Shown one piece after another: positions 17,768-40,458 of a stretch of 40,580 nt of DNA. Location of the stretch: NCBI GenBank assembly GCA_028713285.1, contig JAQTOP010000024.1, forward strand, positions 1-40,580, given 5' to 3'. Every line of letters starts with the position of its first letter. Positions within the stretch are counted from its first letter, which is position 1. The translations under genes were made by a program, and so were the position numbers. Below the pieces are notes generated by a model, which did not search any database, was not told the DNA's origin, and saw only the letters and a program-made list of their open reading frames with translations. Source of the DNA: Terrimicrobiaceae bacterium (lineage in GTDB: Bacteria; Verrucomicrobiota; Verrucomicrobiia; Chthoniobacterales; JAATET01).

Positions 17768-20974
<3,207 letters not shown>

Positions 20975-25485: not shown

Positions 25486-27147
25486 CGTGCCGTAGGGAGG
25501 CAATTCGCTCTCCGGCGCATCGCCGTGAATCGCGCGCCAGTGGACAAACTTCCCGAGCGCATCGAGCCGCTGAGTGGTGTTCGTCACATTGACGACGCAG
25601 AGCGCGCGGCGTGCGCTGCCCCGCAAAATGGCCACGAGTGCCGGGGGCGTGTCCGGGATGACCTGCGGCGCAAACGGATCGAAGGCCGGATGCGACGCCC
25701 TGGCGCGAAGCATCGCGGAGATGCCGGCGAAGACCCTCGATCGAAGGCCGTCTGGCGAATCGAGCTCCGCCGCCAGCGCCTCCACGTGGAGCTTTTGGCG
25801 GTTGATTCGTCTCGGCATCCCGCTTGATTCCGCGGCCGCACGATTTCCGCGCGAGCCGAAAAGGGAATGGAAATAGATGCCGGGCACCCCGCGGAGGGCG
25901 AGCATGATCGCATGCGCCGCAAGGAAGCGCGCCACCTGGACGGATTCGGGCTCGCCGGCCAGCGGATTCGAAAGGGCGTCGAAATAATTTACGTTCAATT
26001 CGTAGGGTGCCCGCGAGCCGTCCGGCTGGTGCTTCCAGGAAACGAAGCCATTGTGTGCCAGGGCCGTCTCGACGAGCGCGTCGAGTTGCTCCTGCGCCAG
26101 CAGGCCGCGCGCGGGATTGAGTCCGATGCCGTCGTGCGAGGCGAGGAAGTTGAAAAACGTCGTGCGGTCCCCCGGTGTCGCGAGCGTGCGCGCCCAGCGG
26201 CACAGCGCGGTCGTGTCTCCGGTGCGCAGCGTGTGGAAGACGAGCGGCGGCAGCGCGAAATTATAGACCATCTGCGCCTCGTTCGTTCCGTCGCCGAAAT
26301 AGGAGACATTGTCCTGGTGAGGGACATTGGTTTCCGTGATGAGCTGCACAGCGGGAGCGGCTTCGTCGAGCACGGCTCGCATGAGCCGGATCACAGCATG
26401 CGTCTGGGGCAGATGGATGCTGGCGGTTCCGGCCTCCTTCCAAAGAAACGCGATCGCGTCCAGGCGTATGTAGCGCGCGCCACGATCGACATAAAATAAC
26501 AGCGCTTCGAGCGTGCGCAGCAGCATGCGCGGGTCGGCGAAATTGATGTCCGCCTGATCCGCGCTGAACGTCGTCCAGACCCGCTTCGCCCCCGCCGCCG
26601 TCGCAAACTCCGTGAGCAGCGGCAGCGCGCGCGGCCGGACGACGGCCGTGAGATCAGGATCGCCTTCGACCGTCGTGAACGCCGTCTCCCAGCCCGGCTT
26701 CTGGGCGAGGAAATTCTGAAACCATACGCCCCGGACCGAGGCGTGATTGAAGACCGCATCGAACATCAAATCGAAGCGCCTCCCGAGCGCCGCGACGTCC
26801 TCCCACGTTCCCAGCGCCGGATCGACCGTGAAGTAATCCATCACCGAAAATCCGTCGTCCGACGAACTCGGATAGAAGGGGAGGATATGCACCGCGCTGA
26901 CTGCTCCCGCGACCTTTCCCGCGAGAAACGTTACAAGCGTTCTCAAGGGGGGCTCGCCTTTCGCGAGCACCTGATCGCCATAGGTGATGAGGATCGCGTC
27001 CCGCTCGCCGGGCCTCGCATTCGCCGGCCAGCGGGGAACAATCCCCCGTCGCGCGGCGGCGACCAAGGCGCCGACAGCCGCCGCCGCATCGGAGCCTCGC
27101 GGTTCGCCGTAAAGAAATGCGAGGAGCTCGCGGATGCGGGCGTTCAC
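25468..27147 (-). CDS. GH13_18-type phosphorylase (glucosylglycerate/sucrose phosphorylase-like)
   Basis: The 559-residue protein starts at GTG 27147. It is a GH13 enzyme of the sucrose-phosphorylase branch: 'VHILPFYPSSSDDGFSVMDY', 'FDLMFDAVFNHAS', catalytic nucleophile Asp230 in 'YIRLDAIAFLWKE', acid/base Glu272 in 'LITETNVPHQDNVSYF', and transition-state Asp in 'FLASHDGIGLNP'. 'SSSDDGFSV.DY' and 'ETNVPH.DN.SYFG' are typical for this branch, whose members phosphorolyse sucrose, glucosylglycerate or related glucosides to glucose-1-phosphate. Given the GpgS-like and HAD neighbours, glucosylglycerate is the most likely substrate. This closes a make-and-recycle loop. Confidence 0.85.
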   Translation of the reverse strand: MNARIRELLAFLYGEPRGSDAAAAVGALVAAARRGIVPRWPANARPGERDAILITYGDQVLAKGEPPLRTLVTFLAGKVAGAVSAVHILPFYPSSSDDGFSVMDYFTVDPALGTWEDVAALGRRFDLMFDAVFNHASVRGVWFQNFLAQKPGWETAFTTVEGDPDLTAVVRPRALPLLTEFATAAGAKRVWTTFSADQADINFADPRMLLRTLEALLFYVDRGARYIRLDAIAFLWKEAGTASIHLPQTHAVIRLMRAVLDEAAPAVQLITETNVPHQDNVSYFGDGTNEAQMVYNFALPPLVFHTLRTGDTTALCRWARTLATPGDRTTFFNFLASHDGIGLNPARGLLAQEQLDALVETALAHNGFVSWKHQPDGSRAPYELNVNYFDALSNPLAGEPESVQVARFLAAHAIMLALRGVPGIYFHSLFGSRGNRAAAESSGMPRRINRQKLHVEALAAELDSPDGLRSRVFAGISAMLRARASHPAFDPFAPQVIPDTPPALVAILRGSARRALCVVNVTNTTQRLDALGKFVHWRAIHGDAPESELPPYGTLWLSE

Positions 27148-27354
27148 ACCTCAATCCCTAGCATGGAAGATCCTCGCCCGCCAGGCACCCAAAAAATTTC
27201 CCGGGAATACAACACGGGAGCGGGCGCTCATACGAATACATTGTTGAACAGAGGATCATCCCCTGCACAACCAATCTCGACTTCCGTTCGATGCGGCTGC
27301 CTGCCGCGGCGGCGGAGGTCAGAAACCAGAAAACCACACAACAAACGCAAACCA
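27148..27354 (+). promoter_or_regulatory. Upstream region of the bufferin-like operon
   Basis: This 207-bp gap separates the divergent GH13 phosphorylase from the precursor gene and must contain the promoter of the precursor-led operon. It is more A-rich than its surroundings in the last 50 bp before the start (GAAACCAGAAAACCACACAA), giving an unstructured leader without a clear Shine-Dalgarno. A 10-bp palindrome TTCCCGGGAA lies at 27198-27207. I cannot identify -35/-10 boxes with confidence, and no sigma factor gene adjoins. Confidence 0.35.
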
Positions 27355-27624
27355 ATGAACAACTCAACGAAAGCAATGATCGTCGGAGCGGCAGTCGCCG
27401 GCCTCCTCAGTGGATCGGCCGCGATGGCCGCCAATAGCTCGGCTCCGCTCGGCGCGAAAGCCGGTGTCGCCATGAAGACGCTCGCCGACAAGGGCACGCA
27501 TTCCTGCAAGGGCCAGAATGGCTGTAAAGGCGAGGGCGGATGCAAGTCGGGCAACAACGGTTGCAAGGGAAAGAACGACTGCAAGGGCAAGGGCGGCTGC
27601 GCCACCGACGGCAGCCACAACTAA
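27355..27624 (+). CDS. Bufferin-like RiPP precursor, six Cys in CKG repeats
   Basis: The 89-residue protein starts at ATG 27355. Residues 1-26 are a Sec signal peptide (MIVGAAVAGLLSGSAAMA, cleavage near AMAA). A short spacer follows, then a core with Cys at 51, 57, 63, 70, 76 and 82, spaced 6-6-7-6-6. Each Cys but the last is followed by Lys and Gly/Ser: CKGQNGC, CKGEGGC, CKSGNNGC, CKGKNDC, CKGKGGC. This is the precursor pattern of BufA-type bufferins, which keep a cleavable signal peptide instead of a classic leader, are modified on Cys by a DUF692/MNIO enzyme and bind copper in the periplasm. The DUF692, DUF2063 and DoxX genes directly downstream support this strongly. The number of modified Cys and the metal cannot be read from sequence. 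Confidence 0.85.
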   Translation: MNNSTKAMIVGAAVAGLLSGSAAMAANSSAPLGAKAGVAMKTLADKGTHSCKGQNGCKGEGGCKSGNNGCKGKNDCKGKGGCATDGSHN

Positions 27625-27638
27625 TCGACTCAACCCAG

Positions 27639-27704
27639 CCGGCGCGCCGCGAATTGCGCCGCCGGAGTTCACGGAGAGTCCCGGGAGTCCGCTCCCGGGC
27701 TCTC
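27639..27704 (+). terminator. Two tandem hairpins between precursor and enzyme genes
   Basis: The first stem pairs CCGGCG (27639-27644) with CGCCGG (27660-27665). The second is stronger: GAGAG-T-CCCGGGAG (27674-27687) pairs with CTCCCGGG-CTCTC (27692-27704) around a 4-nt loop, 13 bp with one bulged T. No T-run follows, so this is not a full intrinsic terminator. Between an abundant precursor and its modifying enzymes such a structure usually acts as partial terminator or as an mRNA 3'-end stabiliser, giving more precursor than enzyme. Structure seen; role inferred. Confidence 0.55.
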
Positions 27705-27728
27705 TCGGAGACGCGTTCGATCCGTCCC

Positions 27729-28577
27729 ATGCCTGCAAATCCTTTCAACGGCCATACCGATTACGGCATCGGCATCGGCCTGCGCGTGCCGCATTACCGG
27801 CACATCCTTGCGGAGAAGCCGACGGTCGATTGGTTCGAGATTATCTCGGAAAACTTCATGGTCGATGGCGGGCGTCCGCTTGAGGTGCTCGACCGTATTC
27901 TTGAGCAATACCGCGTCGTTCAACACGGCGTCGCGATGTATTTCGGCAGCGCCGACAAGCTCGATTGCGAGCACATGCGCCGCATCAAGCGCCTCGTCAA
28001 GCGGACGAACACCCCGTGGCTATCCGACCACCTCTGCTGGGGCAGCGTGGATGGCCGCTTCACCCACGACCTGCTGCCGATGCCCTACACCTTTGCCGCA
28101 GCGAAACATACGGCACAGAAAATCCGCGCCGCCCGCGATATCCTCGAAGTCCCCATTTGCGTGGAGAACGTGAGCAGCTACGCGGAATATCACGTCTCGG
28201 AAATGACCGAGTGGGAATTCCTCACCGAAGTTGTCGAGCGCGCCGACTGCGGCATCCTGCTCGACGTAAACAACATCTTCGTCTCCTCGCAGAATCACAA
28301 CTTCGACCCACTCGACTACGTGAATCACATCCCGCATCATCGCGTCGGGCAGATTCATATCGCCGGCCACTCGAAGTTCGAGCGATACATCCTCGACACC
28401 CACGATCATCCCGTGCTCGACCCGGTGTGGAAGCTCTACGAGCACGCGATCCGCCTCACCGGAAATACAGCGACCCTCCTGGAATGGGACGACCGCATCC
28501 CGACATTCGATGAGGTCCATGGCGAAGCGCTCAAGGCCAACGAATTCATCGAGCGGGTCGAATCCTGCGCCGCGTAG
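27729..28577 (+). CDS. bufB: DUF692/MNIO multinuclear iron oxidase
   Basis: This 282-residue TIM-barrel enzyme is of the DUF692 family (MbnB/BufB type), whose members use two or three iron atoms and oxygen to rebuild cysteines into oxazolone-thioamide or thiooxazole groups. The ligand-bearing motifs are present: 'WFEIISENF' (Glu37, Glu41), 'VVQHGVAMYFG' (His66), 'WLSDHLCW' (His101), 'CVENVSSY' (Glu146, Asn147), 'LLDVNNIFVS' (Asp179, Asn181), 'QIHIAGHS' (His210, His214), 'DTHDHPV' (Asp223, His225) and 'LEWDDRIP' (Glu252). Start ATG 27729 follows the hairpin by 24 bp. With 1 bp to bufC, co-translation is likely. Substrate: the six-Cys precursor just upstream. Confidence 0.93.
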   Translation: MPANPFNGHTDYGIGIGLRVPHYRHILAEKPTVDWFEIISENFMVDGGRPLEVLDRILEQYRVVQHGVAMYFGSADKLDCEHMRRIKRLVKRTNTPWLSDHLCWGSVDGRFTHDLLPMPYTFAAAKHTAQKIRAARDILEVPICVENVSSYAEYHVSEMTEWEFLTEVVERADCGILLDVNNIFVSSQNHNFDPLDYVNHIPHHRVGQIHIAGHSKFERYILDTHDHPVLDPVWKLYEHAIRLTGNTATLLEWDDRIPTFDEVHGEALKANEFIERVESCAA

Positions 28578-28578
28578 C

Positions 28579-29490
28579 ATGGAATCCGTCCGCGAATTGA
28601 AGGAGCTCCAGCGCCTCATGGCGTCGATGCTGTTTCGTCCGCTCGACGCGAAGTGGCGCATGCAAAGAACGACCGCTGCCGGCGCGCGCACGGCGGATGC
28701 GGCGGCGGGATTCATCAAACCCAACGACCGGCTCACCTCCTTCGAGCGGCTCGAGATTTACAACCGGCAGTATTGGTTTCGGGTACTCGATTGCCTCTAC
28801 GACGACTACCCCGGCCTGCGCGCAATCCTTGGCGAGCGGAAGTTCATGCGGCTCTGTCGCGCCTACCTGGTGAAATACCCCTCCGCCTCCTTCACATTGC
28901 GCGACCTCGGCAGCCGGCTCGAAAAGTTCCTGCGCGACGAGCCGGATTGGGCTGCGCCGCGCGCCGCGATGGCGCTCGACATGGCGCGCTTCGAGTGGGC
29001 GCAGATCGTCGCGTTCGATGGGCCGTCGAAACCGGCGATCACGATGGACGACGTGCTCGACACGCCGCCGGAGAAATTGCGGCTGGGCGTCCAGCCCTGC
29101 ATCACGCTGCTGGCGCTCGACCACGAGGTCGATCACTTCCTTCAAGCCGTTCGCAAGCGGGACGGCGACGTGCTGCGCGGCGAGGCGAGCAACGCCATCG
29201 ACCACGCGCCGAAATCCGCCGGGAAAAAATCGCGCCTGCGCCCGCCGCGAATTGCGAAGGTCTTTCTCGCAGTCCACCGTTGCGAGAACGAACTCTATTA
29301 CAAGCGGCTCGATCCCGTGGCCTTCCAGTTGCTTGCCGGCCTGCGGGACGGTCTCACGCTCGACACGGCCTGCGCTTTGGCGCTCGGGGGGAATCCCGAT
29401 CCCGCGCTCGCGGGCGAGCTTCGATCCTGGTTCTCCGAATGGTCCGAACTCGGCTGGTTCTGCAAATTCTCCAAACTACAAAGTCCATGA
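28579..29490 (+). CDS. bufC: DUF2063 partner protein of the MNIO enzyme
   Basis: The 303-residue protein has the DUF2063 N-terminal domain (about residues 5-110): 'ELKELQRLMASMLFRPL', 'RLTSFERLEIYNRQYWFRVLDCLYDDYPGLRAILG', 'FMRLCRAYLVKYPSASFTLRDLGSRLEKFL'. Proteins of this kind are the regular partner of DUF692 enzymes (BufC, HvfC) and are thought to bind and present the precursor, as MbnC does. A C-terminal domain (to residue 303) with 'HRCENELYYKRLDPVAFQLLAGL' completes it, matching full-length homologs. It starts 1 bp after bufB and overlaps doxX by 4 bp. Confidence 0.9.
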   Translation: MESVRELKELQRLMASMLFRPLDAKWRMQRTTAAGARTADAAAGFIKPNDRLTSFERLEIYNRQYWFRVLDCLYDDYPGLRAILGERKFMRLCRAYLVKYPSASFTLRDLGSRLEKFLRDEPDWAAPRAAMALDMARFEWAQIVAFDGPSKPAITMDDVLDTPPEKLRLGVQPCITLLALDHEVDHFLQAVRKRDGDVLRGEASNAIDHAPKSAGKKSRLRPPRIAKVFLAVHRCENELYYKRLDPVAFQLLAGLRDGLTLDTACALALGGNPDPALAGELRSWFSEWSELGWFCKFSKLQSP

Positions 29491-29987
29491 ATTCACCCGA
29501 CGCCTCCAACGATTCCCCGCTCCCCGTCCGAACGTATCTACAGTTCGCGCAAGCCGCCTCCTGGCTGCAGTCGCCGCTCCTGCTCGCCGTCCGGCTCTAC
29601 TGGGGCTGGCAATTTTTCCTCACCGGCAAGGGCAAGTTCGAGCACCTCGACAAAGTCACCCAGTTCTTCACCTCTCTTGGCATTCCGATGCCGCATCTCA
29701 ACGCGATCATGGCGGCATCCACCGAGTGCTTCGGCGGCCTGCTGCTCCTGCTCGGCCTCGGCTCCCGGCTGATCTCGATTCCGCTGACCGTCGTGATGAT
29801 CGTCGCCTACCTCACGGCCGATCTTGAGGCCGTCCAGACGATCTTTTCAAAGCCGGAAAACTTCCTCACCGCCGCTCCGTTTCAATTTCTCTTCGCGGTC
29901 GTGCTGGTGCTCGCCTTCGGCCCCGGCGCCTTCTCGATCGACGCATTGATCGCGCGGAAGCTCGGCATCCGCAGGCCGGGCGCTTAA
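29487..29987 (+). CDS. DoxX-family membrane protein
   Basis: The 166-residue protein starts at ATG 29487, overlapping the bufC stop (ATGA). It has four hydrophobic helices; 'LLLAVRLYWGWQFFLTGKGKFEHLDKVTQFFTSLGIPMPHLNAIMAASTECFGGLLLLLGLGSRL' region (residues 31-95) is the DoxX core with its WQFFxTGxxK and E-x2-GGxxLxxG signatures. DoxX proteins are a constant fourth member of BufA/BufB/BufC operons and probably serve an electron-transfer or membrane redox role linked to maturation. It ends 25 bp before the DNA methyltransferase. Confidence 0.9.
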   Translation: MNSPDASNDSPLPVRTYLQFAQAASWLQSPLLLAVRLYWGWQFFLTGKGKFEHLDKVTQFFTSLGIPMPHLNAIMAASTECFGGLLLLLGLGSRLISIPLTVVMIVAYLTADLEAVQTIFSKPENFLTAAPFQFLFAVVLVLAFGPGAFSIDALIARKLGIRRPGA

Positions 29988-30012
29988 AAGGGCGCTGCGC
30001 GATCAAGTGACA

Positions 30013-30867
30013 ATGAAGGATGCTTCTCCGGATAACGTGAGCGGGCCTGGATGGATTGGCATTGGCCAGGGCAGGATCATTTGCGCCGATGCCCTCGAGG
30101 GCCTCAATGAAGTCGCGGATGGGTCGGTCCAGTTGATCATAGCGGATCCGCCATACTTCCAGGTCCTCGTCGAACATGGATGGGACAACTCCTGGAACGG
30201 TCCGGAGGAATATCTCGCATGGACCATCGAATGGGTTCGGGCGTGCAGGCGGGTTCTAAGAGGCGACGGCCTGCTGTATGTTTTTGGCCAGCTCGGAAAG
30301 AGGGAGCACGTGTGGCTGCATACGTGTTCGCTGCTGGCGAAAGAGATGCAGTTTCACGACATGATCATTTGGGATCGCGCGGTCGGCTATAACGAACGAT
30401 CCGATTCATTCACACCGCAGTATGAAATGATCCTGGCCCTGCGCCACGCGGCGAATGCCGCTCCTTACTTCGACAAGGACGCGGTGCGGCTGCCATACGA
30501 AGAGGATAGAATTCAGTCCTATCTGAGGGACAAGCGCTACAAGGACAAGGCGGCCAGAGAGACGCATCTGCGAAAAGGGAAATATGCCACCAACATCCTC
30601 CGCGTGCCGTCCTTGAAGGGTTCCTCGAAGGAAAAGATCGGTCACCCTTCGCAAAAGCCGATCGGACTGATTCATCAACTGGTCCGTTCCAGCAGCCGCC
30701 CTGGTGATACGGTGCTGGATCCTTTCCTGGGCAGCGGAACGACGGCCGCGTCCTGCGAGTCCTTGATGCGAAAATGGATCGGAATCGAGTCGAACAAAGC
30801 CTATTTTGAAATGGCGCGCAGGCGGATCGAAGACACTCTTTCACGCCCCGAGCCCGCCCTCGATTGA
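30013..30867 (+). CDS. Orphan beta-class DNA methyltransferase (N6A/N4C)
   Basis: The 284-residue protein (ATG 30013) is an amino-methylating DNA methyltransferase of the beta group: catalytic motif IV 'IADPPYFQ' (Asp45-Tyr48) comes first, the target recognition part follows in the middle, then 'GHPSQKPIGLIHQLV' (motif X-like) and the SAM-binding motif I 'VLDPFLGSGTTAASC' near residues 235-249. No restriction endonuclease adjoins, so it may act in regulation or protection. Base use (more AT-rich, e.g. 'gaagatagaattcagtcc') differs a little from neighbours, hinting at acquisition. DPPY is compatible with N6-adenine or N4-cytosine methylation; target sequence unknown. Confidence 0.9.
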   Translation: MKDASPDNVSGPGWIGIGQGRIICADALEGLNEVADGSVQLIIADPPYFQVLVEHGWDNSWNGPEEYLAWTIEWVRACRRVLRGDGLLYVFGQLGKREHVWLHTCSLLAKEMQFHDMIIWDRAVGYNERSDSFTPQYEMILALRHAANAAPYFDKDAVRLPYEEDRIQSYLRDKRYKDKAARETHLRKGKYATNILRVPSLKGSSKEKIGHPSQKPIGLIHQLVRSSSRPGDTVLDPFLGSGTTAASCESLMRKWIGIESNKAYFEMARRRIEDTLSRPEPALD

Positions 30868-30951: not shown

Positions 30952-32238
30952 GTGAGTCTCACCGTTTCCCTCACACGCGTTCCCCGGCGCATCGGCTTCA
31001 TCTCGACTCGATTCCACGGCACCGACGGCGTCACGCTCGAGGCCGCGAAATGGGCGCACATCTTCGAGGCGGAGGGAGCTGCGTGTTACTGGATGGCGGG
31101 CCAGCTCGACAAACCCGCGGCGGTGAGCCACCTCGAGCCGCTCGCGTTTTTCAATCATCCCGAGATTCTCGACGTGCAACGGCGCCTCTTCGCCGTGACG
31201 ACGCGGTCCAGGGCCCTCACCGATCAGGTCCATGCGATCAAGGAGCGGCTCAAAAGTGCGATCTACGCCTTCATCGAGCGTTTCGAACTCGAACTGCTCA
31301 TCCCGCAAAACATTCTCGCGATTCCGATGCACATCCCGCTGGGTCTTGCGATGACAGAGGTGATCGCCGAGACGGGCATCGCGACCGTCGCGCACCATCA
31401 CGATTTCACGTGGGAACGCGAGCGGTTTACGGTCACTGCCGGCGCGGACTACCTCGCGGCCGCCTTTCCGCCCACGCTGCCGAGTCTCGAGCACGTCGTC
31501 ATCAATTCGATGCAGCAAAAGGAACTCGCCCGCCGCTACGGCCAGGCATCGAGCGTGATTCCGAACGTAATCGATTTCGAGACGCCTCCGCCCGGCATCG
31601 ACGACTACACGCGCGATTTCCGGAGCGAAATCGGCCTCGCCGCGGAGGACATTCTCGTGCTCCAGCCGACGCGGCTCGTCGCGCGCAAGGGCATCGAGCA
31701 TTCCATCGAGCTGCTGAGGCGTTTGAAGGATCCCCGTTGCAAGCTCGTCTTCTCGCATCCGCCCGGCGACGAAGGCGACGCCTATTTCGATCTGCTGCGC
31801 GAGCGCATCGCGGATGCAGGCATCGAGGCGGTTATGATTTGGGATCGCGTGGGCGAGGCGCGCGGCGTGAACGACCTAGGCAAAAAAATCTACACGCTCA
31901 ACGACATCTATCCGCACGCCGACCTCGTGACCTACCCGAGCCATTACGAGGGCTTTGGCAACGCGTTTCTCGAGGCGATCTATTTCGGCAGGCCCGTCGT
32001 CGTGAACGCCTACGCCGTGTATGCCCGCGACATCGATCCATTGGGCTTCCGCTGCATCGAGATGTCGCAGCTTGTGACGAACGAGGTCGTTGAACAAACG
32101 CGCGCGATTCTGGCGGATGCGGAACTGCGCGAGGAATGGGCGGTGACCAATTTCCGGCTCGGCCTGAAGTTCTTTTCCTACTCCGTCGCCCGCCGGAAGC
32201 TCGCGGGGCGGCTTGCCAGCTTGTTCGGCGAAGGCTAG
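30952..32238 (+). CDS. Glycosyltransferase resembling mannosylglucosyl-3-phosphoglycerate synthase
   Basis: The 428-residue GT-B protein starts at GTG 30952. Its N-terminus 'IGFISTRFHGTDGVTLEAAKWAHI' and the blocks 'LLIPQNILAIPMHIPLGLAM', 'TVAHHHDFTWERERF' and 'SSVIPNVIDFE' are unlike ordinary GT4 enzymes and recall MggA-type synthases, which add mannose to glucosyl-3-phosphoglycerate. The donor half has 'LQPTRLVARKGIEHSIELL' and the E-x7-E block 'HYEGFGNAFLEAIYFGRPVV'. If right, it would extend the product of the GpgS-like enzyme encoded 7.7 kb away. That link is inference from remembered family features; a general GT4 role remains possible. Confidence 0.75.
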   Translation: MSLTVSLTRVPRRIGFISTRFHGTDGVTLEAAKWAHIFEAEGAACYWMAGQLDKPAAVSHLEPLAFFNHPEILDVQRRLFAVTTRSRALTDQVHAIKERLKSAIYAFIERFELELLIPQNILAIPMHIPLGLAMTEVIAETGIATVAHHHDFTWERERFTVTAGADYLAAAFPPTLPSLEHVVINSMQQKELARRYGQASSVIPNVIDFETPPPGIDDYTRDFRSEIGLAAEDILVLQPTRLVARKGIEHSIELLRRLKDPRCKLVFSHPPGDEGDAYFDLLRERIADAGIEAVMIWDRVGEARGVNDLGKKIYTLNDIYPHADLVTYPSHYEGFGNAFLEAIYFGRPVVVNAYAVYARDIDPLGFRCIEMSQLVTNEVVEQTRAILADAELREEWAVTNFRLGLKFFSYSVARRKLAGRLASLFGEG

Positions 32239-36714: not shown

Positions 36715-39700
36715 ATGAGTCAATCCATTCACACGATCCTTGCTCAGTTCCGCGAGGAGGCTAGGTCCAATCGAGATTTGGGAGACCGTTTTGAGCGCTT
36801 GATCTGCCGATACCTCGAACTCGACCCGCTATACGCGGAACGGTTCTCGCGCGTCTGGATGTGGAATGAATTCCCGCGGAAAGGCAACGTCGGCGACGTG
36901 GGCATCGACATCGTTGCGGAAGAGCGCGCAACGGGCGAGTTTTGCGCCATTCAGTGCAAGTTCTATCTCCCGGATCACACGCTCTCGAAGGCGGACTTGG
37001 ATTCCTTCTTCACCGCTTCGGGAAAGACGCTTTTCACCTCATGCATCATCGTTTCCACGACAGACAAGTGGGGGCCGAATGCCCAGCACGCACTGGCTCA
37101 TCAATCGAAGCCCGTCCTGCGCCTCCGTGTGCAAGACCTCGACGAAAGCCCGGTTGATTGGTCGAAGTTCGATCTCAAGCGGCCGCAAGACCTCGGCCTC
37201 CGCGAACGCAAGAAACCGCGGCCTCATCAGGAAGAGGCGATCAAGGACGTAACGAACGGCCTCGCCCTTGCCGACCGAGGTAAGCTCATCATGGCCTGCG
37301 GCACGGGGAAGACGTTCATCTCACTCTGCATCGCGGAGAAACTCGCACCCAAGGGCCACATTCTTTTCCTCGTCCCATCGCTCTCCCTGCTTTCACAGAG
37401 CTTGCGCGAGTGGACTGCGGAATCCACGCGGCCGCTCCACAGCCTCGCCGTCTGCTCCGACGCGAACATCGGCAAGAAACACACGAAGACCGATGACGAC
37501 AGTGCGGACATCACGACGATAGACCTCGCTTTTCCCGCCACGACCTCCGCACAGCAGATCGTGAAGCAGTATCGCGCAGTACTGGGTGCGGCGGAGAAAG
37601 CGAAGAAGCCCGCGCAGATGACCGTGGTCTTCTCCACCTACCAGTCCATCGCGGCGGTATCCGAGGCGCAGAAGGCCGGGCTGCCGGATTTCGATCTCAT
37701 TATCTGCGACGAGGCGCACCGCACTACGGGTGTCACCATCAGCGGGGAGGACGAGAGCCATTTCGTGAAGGTCCACGACGCCGATTTCCTCCGGGGACAG
37801 AAGCGCCTCTACATGACGGCCACGCCGCGCATCTACAGCGACGACACCAAGGTTAAGGCCAGGGATGCCAATGCGGAACTGTGCTCCATGGACGACACCG
37901 CCATCTTCGGCGAACAGCTCCATCGCCTCGGCTTTGGCGAGGCCGTGGGCAGGGATCTGCTTTCCGATTACAAGGTGCTCGTCCTCGCCGTGGATGAAAA
38001 ATACGTTTCAAAGACCTTCCAGCGACAAATCGCGGACGCGAACAACGAACTGAACCTCGAAGACGCCGCCAAGATCACCGGCTGCTGGAACGGCCTCGCC
38101 AAGCACCTCGACAAAGCCGCCGCCTCCGAAGTTGACTTGCACGGCGACACCGCGCACATGCGTCGCGCCGTCGCCTTCTCGCGTTCCATCAAGGACTCGA
38201 AAGCCTTCGCGCAGCAGTTTGGCCAGATTATCGAGGCCTATCGCGAGACGCATCCCGACGAGGAGAACCTCCTCCATTGCGAGCTGGATCATGTGGACGG
38301 GACCTTCGGCGCGCTGGCCCGCAATGCCCGGCTCGACTGGCTCAAGGCGAATGCGCCGTCCGACACCTGCCGCATTCTCTCGAATGCCCGCTGCCTTTCG
38401 GAAGGCGTGGACGTTCCCGCGCTCGACGCCGTGCTCTTCCTGAATCCGCGCAATTCCGTCATTGATGTCGTCCAGTCCGTAGGCCGCGTCATGCGCAAGG
38501 CGGAGGGGAAGAAATACGGTTACATCCTCCTGCCCGTCGGCATCCCGGCGGATGTCACGCCCGAGGAGGCGCTCAAGGACAACGACAAATACAAGGTCGT
38601 CTGGCAGGTGCTCCAGGCCCTCCGCGCGCACGACGACCGCTTCAATGCCACCGTCAACCAGATCGAGCTGAACAAAAAGCGGCCCGACAACATTCAGGTC
38701 ATCGGCATCGGCGGCCAGGAACCCGGCGACAAGAACGACGGCGACAGTTCGCCCAAGGTGCAGGAACTCCAGGGCACCTTCCTCTTCCCGCATTTGGAGG
38801 AATGGAAGGACGCCATCTACGCCCGCATCGTTCTGAAATGCGGCGAGCGCGGCTATTGGGAAAGCTGGGCGAAGGACGTGGCCGTCATCGCCGAGCGCCA
38901 CACCACCCGCATCCGCGCCTTGCTGGAGAGCGGCGAGCCCCGGCACAAGCAAGCCTTCGCCGACTTCCTCGCCGGCCTTCGACAGAATCTCAACCCGTCA
39001 ATCAGCGAGGACGACGCCATCGAGATGCTCTCCCAGCATCTCATCACCCGCCCGGTCTTCGACGCTCTTTTTGCGAACTACGAATTTACGAAGCACAACC
39101 CCGTCTCCATCGCCATGCAGGCGATGCTCGATACCCTCGAGGATCAGGCGCTGGAAAAGGAGGCCGCCTCGCTGGAGAAATTCTACGCCAGCGTCCGCGA
39201 CCGCGCCTCCGGCATCGACAACGCCGAGGGCCGCCAGCGCGTTGTCATCGAGCTTTACGACAAATTCTTTCGCACCGCCTTCCCGAAGGTCGCCGAGCGC
39301 CTCGGCATCGTCTATACGCCGGTCGAGGTCGTGGACTTCATCATCCACAGCGTGAGCGACGCCCTCCAGAGCGAGTTCGGTTCCGCGTTCGGGGACCGGG
39401 ATGTCCACATCATCGACCCCTTCACCGGCACCGGCACCTTCATCGTCCGCCTGCTGCAAAGCGGCCTCATCCCCGCCGCCGACCTCCTGCGCAAATACCA
39501 GCACGAGCTGCACGCCAACGAAATCATCCTCCTCGCCTACTACATCGCCGCCATCAATATCGAGGAGACCTTCCATGGCCTCGAGCGTGGGGCGAAGTAT
39601 TCCGGCAGGAAGTCCGCCGATGCCGCCAAGGCGGACCGCTACATCCCCTTCGAGGGCATCGTCCTCACCGACACCTTCCAGCTCTCGGAGACGAAGGGCG

Positions 39701-40458
39701 AGATGGAGGAAAAGATGTTCCCCGAGAACAACCGCCGCGCGAAGCGCCAGAAGCAAAGCCCCATCCGCGTCGTCATCGGGAATCCGCCGTATTCCGTGGG
39801 GCAAGGTGACGCCAATAAGAACAACCAGAACCTCAAGTATCCGCTACTTGACGAACGCATTCGCTCCACTTACGCCGAGCGTTCGACCGCGACCCTAAAG
39901 AATAGCCTCTACGATAGCTACGTCCGTGCGCTGCGTTGGGCCAGCGACCGGATCGCGGAAAAGGGCATCGTCGCCTTTGTCAGCAACGGCTCATTCATAG
40001 ATAGCAATTCAATGGATGGGCTTCGCGCGAGCTTGGCAAATGAATTCACCAGCATTTATGTATTCAATCTTCGTGGTAACATTCGGACATTCAATAGAGC
40101 GGAGGGACAAAACATTTTCGGTCAAAACAGCATGGCGCTTATCGCCATTTCTCTCTTAATAAAGAATCCTGAAAAGAAAGAAGGCTGCCAAATCTACTAC
40201 CATGATATTGGTGATTACCTAAGCCGCGAACAAAAGATAGCCATCATTACCCAATTTCAAAGCATCAGCGGCCTCGATCGGGAAAAGAAATGGCAACTAC
40301 TCAAGCCAAATGCCAGCTACGACTGGATAAACCAGCGAGACGAGGCATTTGATACATTCATTTCGCTTGGAGTCAAAAAAGATGACAGCGCAAAGACCAT
40401 CTTTGAAAGCTACTCACATGGCTTAAAGACGAACCGAGACTTTTGGTGTTTCAACTAG
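36715..40458 (+). CDS. Type ISP restriction-modification enzyme, 3'-truncated by an IS
   Basis: This single chain carries all activities of Type ISP (LlaGI-like) systems. Residues 1-100 form an Mrr-like nuclease (Asp65 in 'VGIDIV', Gln80-Cys-Lys82 in 'AIQCKFY'). A superfamily 2 helicase follows (Walker A 'ACGTGKTF' near 192-199, 'CDEAHRTTG' near 331-339, 'SVGRVMRKAEGKKYGYI'). Then comes a gamma-class N6-adenine methyltransferase ('IDPFTGTGTFIV' near 900-911, 'VIGNPPYSVG' near 1020-1029). Start ATG 36715 follows AGGAG. The chain stops after 1247 residues, while relatives run to about 1550-1600 with a C-terminal target recognition domain. The stop codon TAG lies at the junction with IS5-like sequence, so the recognition domain is lost. 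The last 500 bp are also more AT-rich. Confidence 0.9.
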   Translation: MSQSIHTILAQFREEARSNRDLGDRFERLICRYLELDPLYAERFSRVWMWNEFPRKGNVGDVGIDIVAEERATGEFCAIQCKFYLPDHTLSKADLDSFFTASGKTLFTSCIIVSTTDKWGPNAQHALAHQSKPVLRLRVQDLDESPVDWSKFDLKRPQDLGLRERKKPRPHQEEAIKDVTNGLALADRGKLIMACGTGKTFISLCIAEKLAPKGHILFLVPSLSLLSQSLREWTAESTRPLHSLAVCSDANIGKKHTKTDDDSADITTIDLAFPATTSAQQIVKQYRAVLGAAEKAKKPAQMTVVFSTYQSIAAVSEAQKAGLPDFDLIICDEAHRTTGVTISGEDESHFVKVHDADFLRGQKRLYMTATPRIYSDDTKVKARDANAELCSMDDTAIFGEQLHRLGFGEAVGRDLLSDYKVLVLAVDEKYVSKTFQRQIADANNELNLEDAAKITGCWNGLAKHLDKAAASEVDLHGDTAHMRRAVAFSRSIKDSKAFAQQFGQIIEAYRETHPDEENLLHCELDHVDGTFGALARNARLDWLKANAPSDTCRILSNARCLSEGVDVPALDAVLFLNPRNSVIDVVQSVGRVMRKAEGKKYGYILLPVGIPADVTPEEALKDNDKYKVVWQVLQALRAHDDRFNATVNQIELNKKRPDNIQVIGIGGQEPGDKNDGDSSPKVQELQGTFLFPHLEEWKDAIYARIVLKCGERGYWESWAKDVAVIAERHTTRIRALLESGEPRHKQAFADFLAGLRQNLNPSISEDDAIEMLSQHLITRPVFDALFANYEFTKHNPVSIAMQAMLDTLEDQALEKEAASLEKFYASVRDRASGIDNAEGRQRVVIELYDKFFRTAFPKVAERLGIVYTPVEVVDFIIHSVSDALQSEFGSAFGDRDVHIIDPFTGTGTFIVRLLQSGLIPAADLLRKYQHELHANEIILLAYYIAAINIEETFHGLERGAKYSGRKSADAAKADRYIPFEGIVLTDTFQLSETKGEMEEKMFPENNRRAKRQKQSPIRVVIGNPPYSVGQGDANKNNQNLKYPLLDERIRSTYAERSTATLKNSLYDSYVRALRWASDRIAEKGIVAFVSNGSFIDSNSMDGLRASLANEFTSIYVFNLRGNIRTFNRAEGQNIFGQNSMALIAISLLIKNPEKKEGCQIYYHDIGDYLSREQKIAIITQFQSISGLDREKKWQLLKPNASYDWINQRDEAFDTFISLGVKKDDSAKTIFESYSHGLKTNRDFWCFN

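Follow-up and report, generated by a model that had tools for sequence, protein, structure and literature searches.

The question raised by positions 27355 to 29987 of the window (the whole 40,580-nt stretch of Terrimicrobiaceae DNA that was analysed) is whether the four genes found there encode a known type of bufferin system or a separate one, and what their product would do. Bufferins are among the commonest RiPPs. The published work consulted on them centres on Pseudomonadota, while the subgroup described here belongs to Verrucomicrobiota and Acidobacteriota. The locus is read here, with a rough probability of 0.78, as a Buf2-like bufferin (captophorin) operon whose product is an exported thiooxazole peptide sequestering copper. 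Bufferins as a kind are already known, and the enzymes and layout of the operon are of the ordinary bufferin type; what differs, and by sequence comparison appears new, is the cysteine layout of the precursor, which falls below the cut-off of the standard family model. The assembly (3.5 Mb, 157 contigs) contained one MNIO gene in the whole genome. The features of the locus are as follows.

27355..27624, + strand: bufA, precursor of 89 aa with six Cys at spacing 5-5-6-5-5
27355..27429, + strand: predicted Sec signal peptide of 25 aa, the probable leader, with an AMA cleavage motif assigned by eye
27505..27600, + strand: Cys-Lys repeat core, C51 to C82 of bufA
27672..27708, + strand: stem-loop in the bufA-bufB gap, -27.7 kcal/mol (best 40 nt)
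27729..28577, + strand: bufB, MNIO (formerly DUF692) bufferin maturase of 282 aa (NF050167, PF05114)
28579..29490, + strand: bufC, DUF2063 (PME-type 1) partner of 303 aa (PF09836, structure model)
29487..29987, + strand: doxX, DoxX/HvfX-like membrane protein of 166 aa (PF07681)

The first-pass annotation had described four co-directional genes with 1-nt or overlapping junctions after the precursor, and the coordinates agree exactly: bufB and bufC are separated by 1 nt, doxX begins 4 nt before the end of bufC (ATGA overlap), and the 104-nt bufA-bufB gap is the sole wide junction in the operon. Its view of the genes as a complete bufA-bufB-bufC-doxX set is borne out by the Pfam and NCBIfam domain matches and by the recurrence of the set in related loci, the six cysteines were counted in the 89-aa BufA, and the iron-binding motifs ascribed to the DUF692 protein are present as conserved MNIO residues aligning with 3BWW. 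The bufferin-type identity follows from the score of BufB above the maturase cut-off, the known MNIO-partner fold of BufC, and the recurring gene set.

BufB scored 342 bits with the bufferin maturase model NF050167 (cut-off 310) and matched PF05114 (MbnB_TglH_ChrH) with an E value of 8.5e-105. Among 81 BufBs, residues H66, D100/H101, E146/N147, D179, N181/N182, H210, D223, H225, E252, and D254 were invariant or nearly so; they are candidate metal-site and catalytic residues, and the majority of them pair with an identical residue in 3BWW. The residues D242, H244, and N175 of HvfB are needed for activity (PMC13419390). By our own reading of the DTH motif, D223 and H225 of BufB would correspond to D242 and H244, and one of N181/N182 is probably equivalent to N175. 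The catalytic Asp is followed by another Asp (EWDD) in the window BufB and, overall, in 73 of the 81 BufBs, as reported for Cys-Lys enzymes (PMC13097082); in the window BufB, Val takes the place of the second Arg found in Lys-Cys enzymes. An assignment to the EGKCG type was rejected on the score of BufB with the HvfB model (249 against a cut-off of 360), the CKG motif, and the presence of Asp instead of Phe.

BufC matched PF09836 (DUF2063) with an E value of 1.6e-14 (54 bits, cut-off 27) and scored below the cut-off of the HvfC model (41 bits, cut-off 142). Its structure model, built from 38 sequences, had a mean pLDDT of 92, and the best solved matches to the modelled fold were NGO1945 (3dee), which is the reference PME-type 1 partner, and TglHI entries. 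These relatives come from fold comparison only; when BufC was compared with PDB sequences by profile, no DUF2063/RRE relative was returned. The DoxX protein matched PF07681 (E 4.6e-20) and was just under the cut-off of the HvfX model (77.6 bits, cut-off 80).

Eighty related loci, some of them cut by contig ends, were collected with BufB. Inspection of these DUF692 neighbourhoods, which the first-pass annotation had suggested, placed a precursor upstream in 78/80 and BufC downstream in 78/80, with DoxX in 55/80; such recurrence shows that the operon is not a chance arrangement. Nearly all of the loci belong to Verrucomicrobiota and Acidobacteriota, and one is labelled Phycisphaerales. A 41-BufB tree placed the 28 of the subgroup in one group (support 100/99, stem of 1.5 changes per column), some clustering being expected because these 28 were chosen by similarity to the window BufB. 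Verrucomicrobiota and Acidobacteriota are intermixed within this clade, many inner branches of which are weak, hinting at possible transfer between the two phyla.

Searched against BufA families, as proposed earlier, the 89-aa precursor matched the NCBI BufA2 model (NF050166) with an E value of 4e-11; its 43 bits were, however, below the cut-off of 60. Five related precursors scored 36-50 bits and five canonical Buf2 precursors 92-106 bits with the same model, and the nine BufA2 matches across 289 genomes of the phylum were all below the cut-off, which misses the subgroup. The canonical Buf2 spacing, 5-5-6-5-12, was found in 8/8 Pseudomonadota precursors taken from plasmid records. The window spacing of 5-5-6-5-5 was shared exactly by 54 of the 78 aligned precursors, the others mostly having extra Cys or having lost Cys, and a distal last Cys occurred in none of the 78. 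Each of C51, C57, C76, and C82 is retained in 77-78 rows of this alignment; for C63 and C70 the figure is 73-74. The predicted Sec signal peptide of BufA, read by eye from the sequence, is conserved across the alignment with the motif AAxxGLxxG (A12, A13, G16, L17, and G20 kept in 70-77 rows), which fits the second role as a recognition leader reported for HvfA (PMC13419390) and, in preliminary form, for Buf1 (PMC12452194). A tblastn search for the precursor in plasmids gave nothing.

Several other precursor forms were observed upstream of MNIO genes: with at least nine CKGKDGC-type repeats (L096, L071, and L078), reduced to three to five Cys (L101, L106, L107, and L110, all Acidobacteriota), and, at L053, as a tandem pair of precursor genes ahead of a single MNIO gene. 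The operon type was also present at L088, labelled Akkermansia muciniphila, with a precursor bearing a possible lipobox (TTGC); this MAG label may be wrong. Chthoniobacter flavus (L117) is a cultivated relative that has the window's version of the operon.

The Pfam search gave no match to DUF2282 (PF10048) in the window precursor, on which ground a Buf1 assignment was rejected; the distinction from the DUF2282 type drawn in the first-pass annotation holds. Its proposal of a separate precursor class stands in part: the precursor is not undescribed and belongs with Buf2, but it represents a divergent subgroup that scores below the cut-off and has its sixth Cys shifted. This recognisable, unnamed Buf2-like subgroup may be listed in the supplementary tables of PMC12452194 or PMC13097082. 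The remark that the product chemistry is not settled accords with PMC12452194, where the identity of the Buf2 modifications is left open; the mass loss per Cys and the 305-nm band of Buf2 match those of Buf1 (PMC12452194).

The BufA2 and BufB models were unmatched in three genus-mates, one of whose genomes is only 84% complete. Counterparts of the glycosyltransferase gene at 30952, just downstream of the operon, were present in 3/3 genus-mates (54-58% identical), as were whole or partial counterparts of the gene at 19787, while the operon genes and the adjoining hydrolase genes had no match in the compared stretches. Since the genus-mates lack BufA2 and BufB matches yet have the glycosyltransferase counterpart, the segment holding the operon seems to be a variable one. 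Neither a metal regulator nor a metal transporter was recognised adjoining the operon, a sigma-70 promoter scan of 27100-30100 found nothing, and scanning the window for Rfam families and tRNAs gave no hits. About 20-25 nt past doxX, on the same strand, starts a gene for an N6/N4 DNA methylase (30007-30867), which may share the operon transcript; this gene was placed outside the operon because it is absent from the core set of PMC12452194. The 1247-aa protein encoded at 36715-40458, with Mrr-type nuclease, helicase, and type ISP coupler domains, is probably a single-chain restriction-modification enzyme.

The survey of stem-loops covered the bufA-bufB gaps of loci L038-L117 and L128-L137. At 72 loci, including the window, the gap hairpin had a median of -24.8 kcal/mol (best 40 nt), and 68/72 gaps had one of -20 kcal/mol or lower. 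This level was reached by 2/72 and 0/72 equal-length stretches inside bufB, 11/71 stretches upstream of bufA, and 7/49 other co-directional gaps of the same loci; the Mann-Whitney p of 4e-17 between bufA-bufB and other gaps is a guide only, as related loci are not independent. The hairpin was stronger than all 20 dinucleotide shuffles in 65/72 cases. The stem sequence was unconserved (58 distinct 5' arms among 60, with a weak stem picked by the script in some loci), and paired stem changes were seen, e.g., GTATCGCGGC/GCCGCGATAC in L073 versus GTATCGCCGC/GCGGCGATAC in L104. A T-rich tail followed the hairpin in 25/72 loci and was lacking in the window copy. A hairpin was found in 7/7 Pseudomonadota Buf2 gaps measured (-18 to -33 kcal/mol), and three Buf1 operons examined had A-B gaps of -1 to 10 nt without a stem-loop. 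The main texts of PMC12452194 and PMC12538549 contain no mention of a stem-loop. Its recurrence suggests a shared way to make the precursor in excess of the enzyme, and we infer that it probably favours precursor over enzyme expression.

According to the Buf2-like reading, BufA would be made with a Sec signal peptide doubling as the leader for BufBC, BufC (DUF2063 and an RRE-like domain) would present BufA to BufB, and BufB, with a mixed-valent iron centre and O2, would turn several of the Cys in the Cys-Lys motifs into 5-thiooxazoles. After modification, the peptide would be exported by Sec, trimmed, and sequester excess copper in the periplasm, with DoxX helping from the membrane and the stem-loop after bufA probably holding precursor transcripts above enzyme transcripts in abundance. 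The thiooxazole chemistry and the copper role are likely by homology to characterised relatives: 5-thiooxazole is installed by characterised PME1-dependent MNIOs (PMC13097082), and those bufferins and captophorins that have been characterised function under excess copper (PMC13097082 and PMC12452194). Copper is the best guess for the metal. Several points speak against the Buf2-like explanation: the precursor misses the BufA2 cut-off and differs in its last-Cys spacing, no copper regulator or transporter was recognised beside the operon, and three genus-mates lack the operon.

In Buf1, a disulfide joins the outer Cys, whereas the central ones carry the modifications (PMC12452194), and canonical Buf2, by analogy, may leave the first (CYG) and last Cys unmodified; in the window BufA, the first Cys motif is CKG and the last Cys lies inside the repeat. 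A tentative alternative is that the subgroup constitutes a separate class, which, having a repeat-only core, would have no Cys for a Buf1-like terminal disulfide, carry modifications on most or all Cys, and bind copper differently, and that a conserved RNA stem-loop would set the precursor-to-enzyme ratio in operons of the Buf2 type and not in those of Buf1. It is unlikely that the same chemistry mainly serves another soft metal (Ag, Au, or Hg) or oxidative or sulfur stress: the first name given to bufferin-type operons was gold-induced genes, fusions of MerC with a bufferin are known, and the presence of DoxX suggests other stresses (PMC12452194), but copper excess is the setting in which the characterised peptides act. 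Regular Cys spacing and the existence of precursor genes that have no MNIO gene beside them (PMC12452194) would suit an unmodified, metallothionein-like BufA, with BufBC targeting something else; the tight precursor-MNIO linkage (78/80 loci) and the match between the Cys-Lys specificity residue of BufB and the precursor make this highly improbable. Least probable is a methanobactin-like copper acquisition system, which has the enzyme superfamily in common, and an MbnABC assignment was rejected, as the MbnB model gave 40 bits against a cut-off of 325, MbnC was unmatched, the partner being DUF2063, the window precursor carries a predicted signal peptide, and no uptake or export gene was recognised adjoining the operon.

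Among known systems, oxazolin, fontiphorin, and gonophorin (EGKCG, Lys-Cys captophorins) share with the window an MNIO, a PME1 partner, DoxX/HvfX, Cys repeats, and a signal peptide (predicted in the window BufA), and differ in the motif (EGKCG versus CKG) and the specificity site (Phe versus Asp). Buf1 (DUF2282) of Caulobacter is similar in its MNIO, DUF2063 partner, and signal peptide (predicted here), whereas its precursor is of the DUF2282 type and, in the operons examined, the A-B gap was nearly absent and held no stem-loop. The closest system is Buf2 (Buf_6/12Cys; NF050166 BufA2; Cys-Lys captophorins; PMC12452194 and PMC13097082), which has the same A-B-C-DoxX order, a signal peptide like the one predicted here, six Cys with the first five equally spaced, CKG motifs, Asp at the specificity site, and a stem-loop in the A-B gap. 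The window precursor differs from it in the spacing of the last Cys (5 versus 12) and in the motif of the first (CKG versus CYG/CFG), and its very regular Cys-Lys repeat offers a simple substrate for locating the Cys modified by the MNIO.
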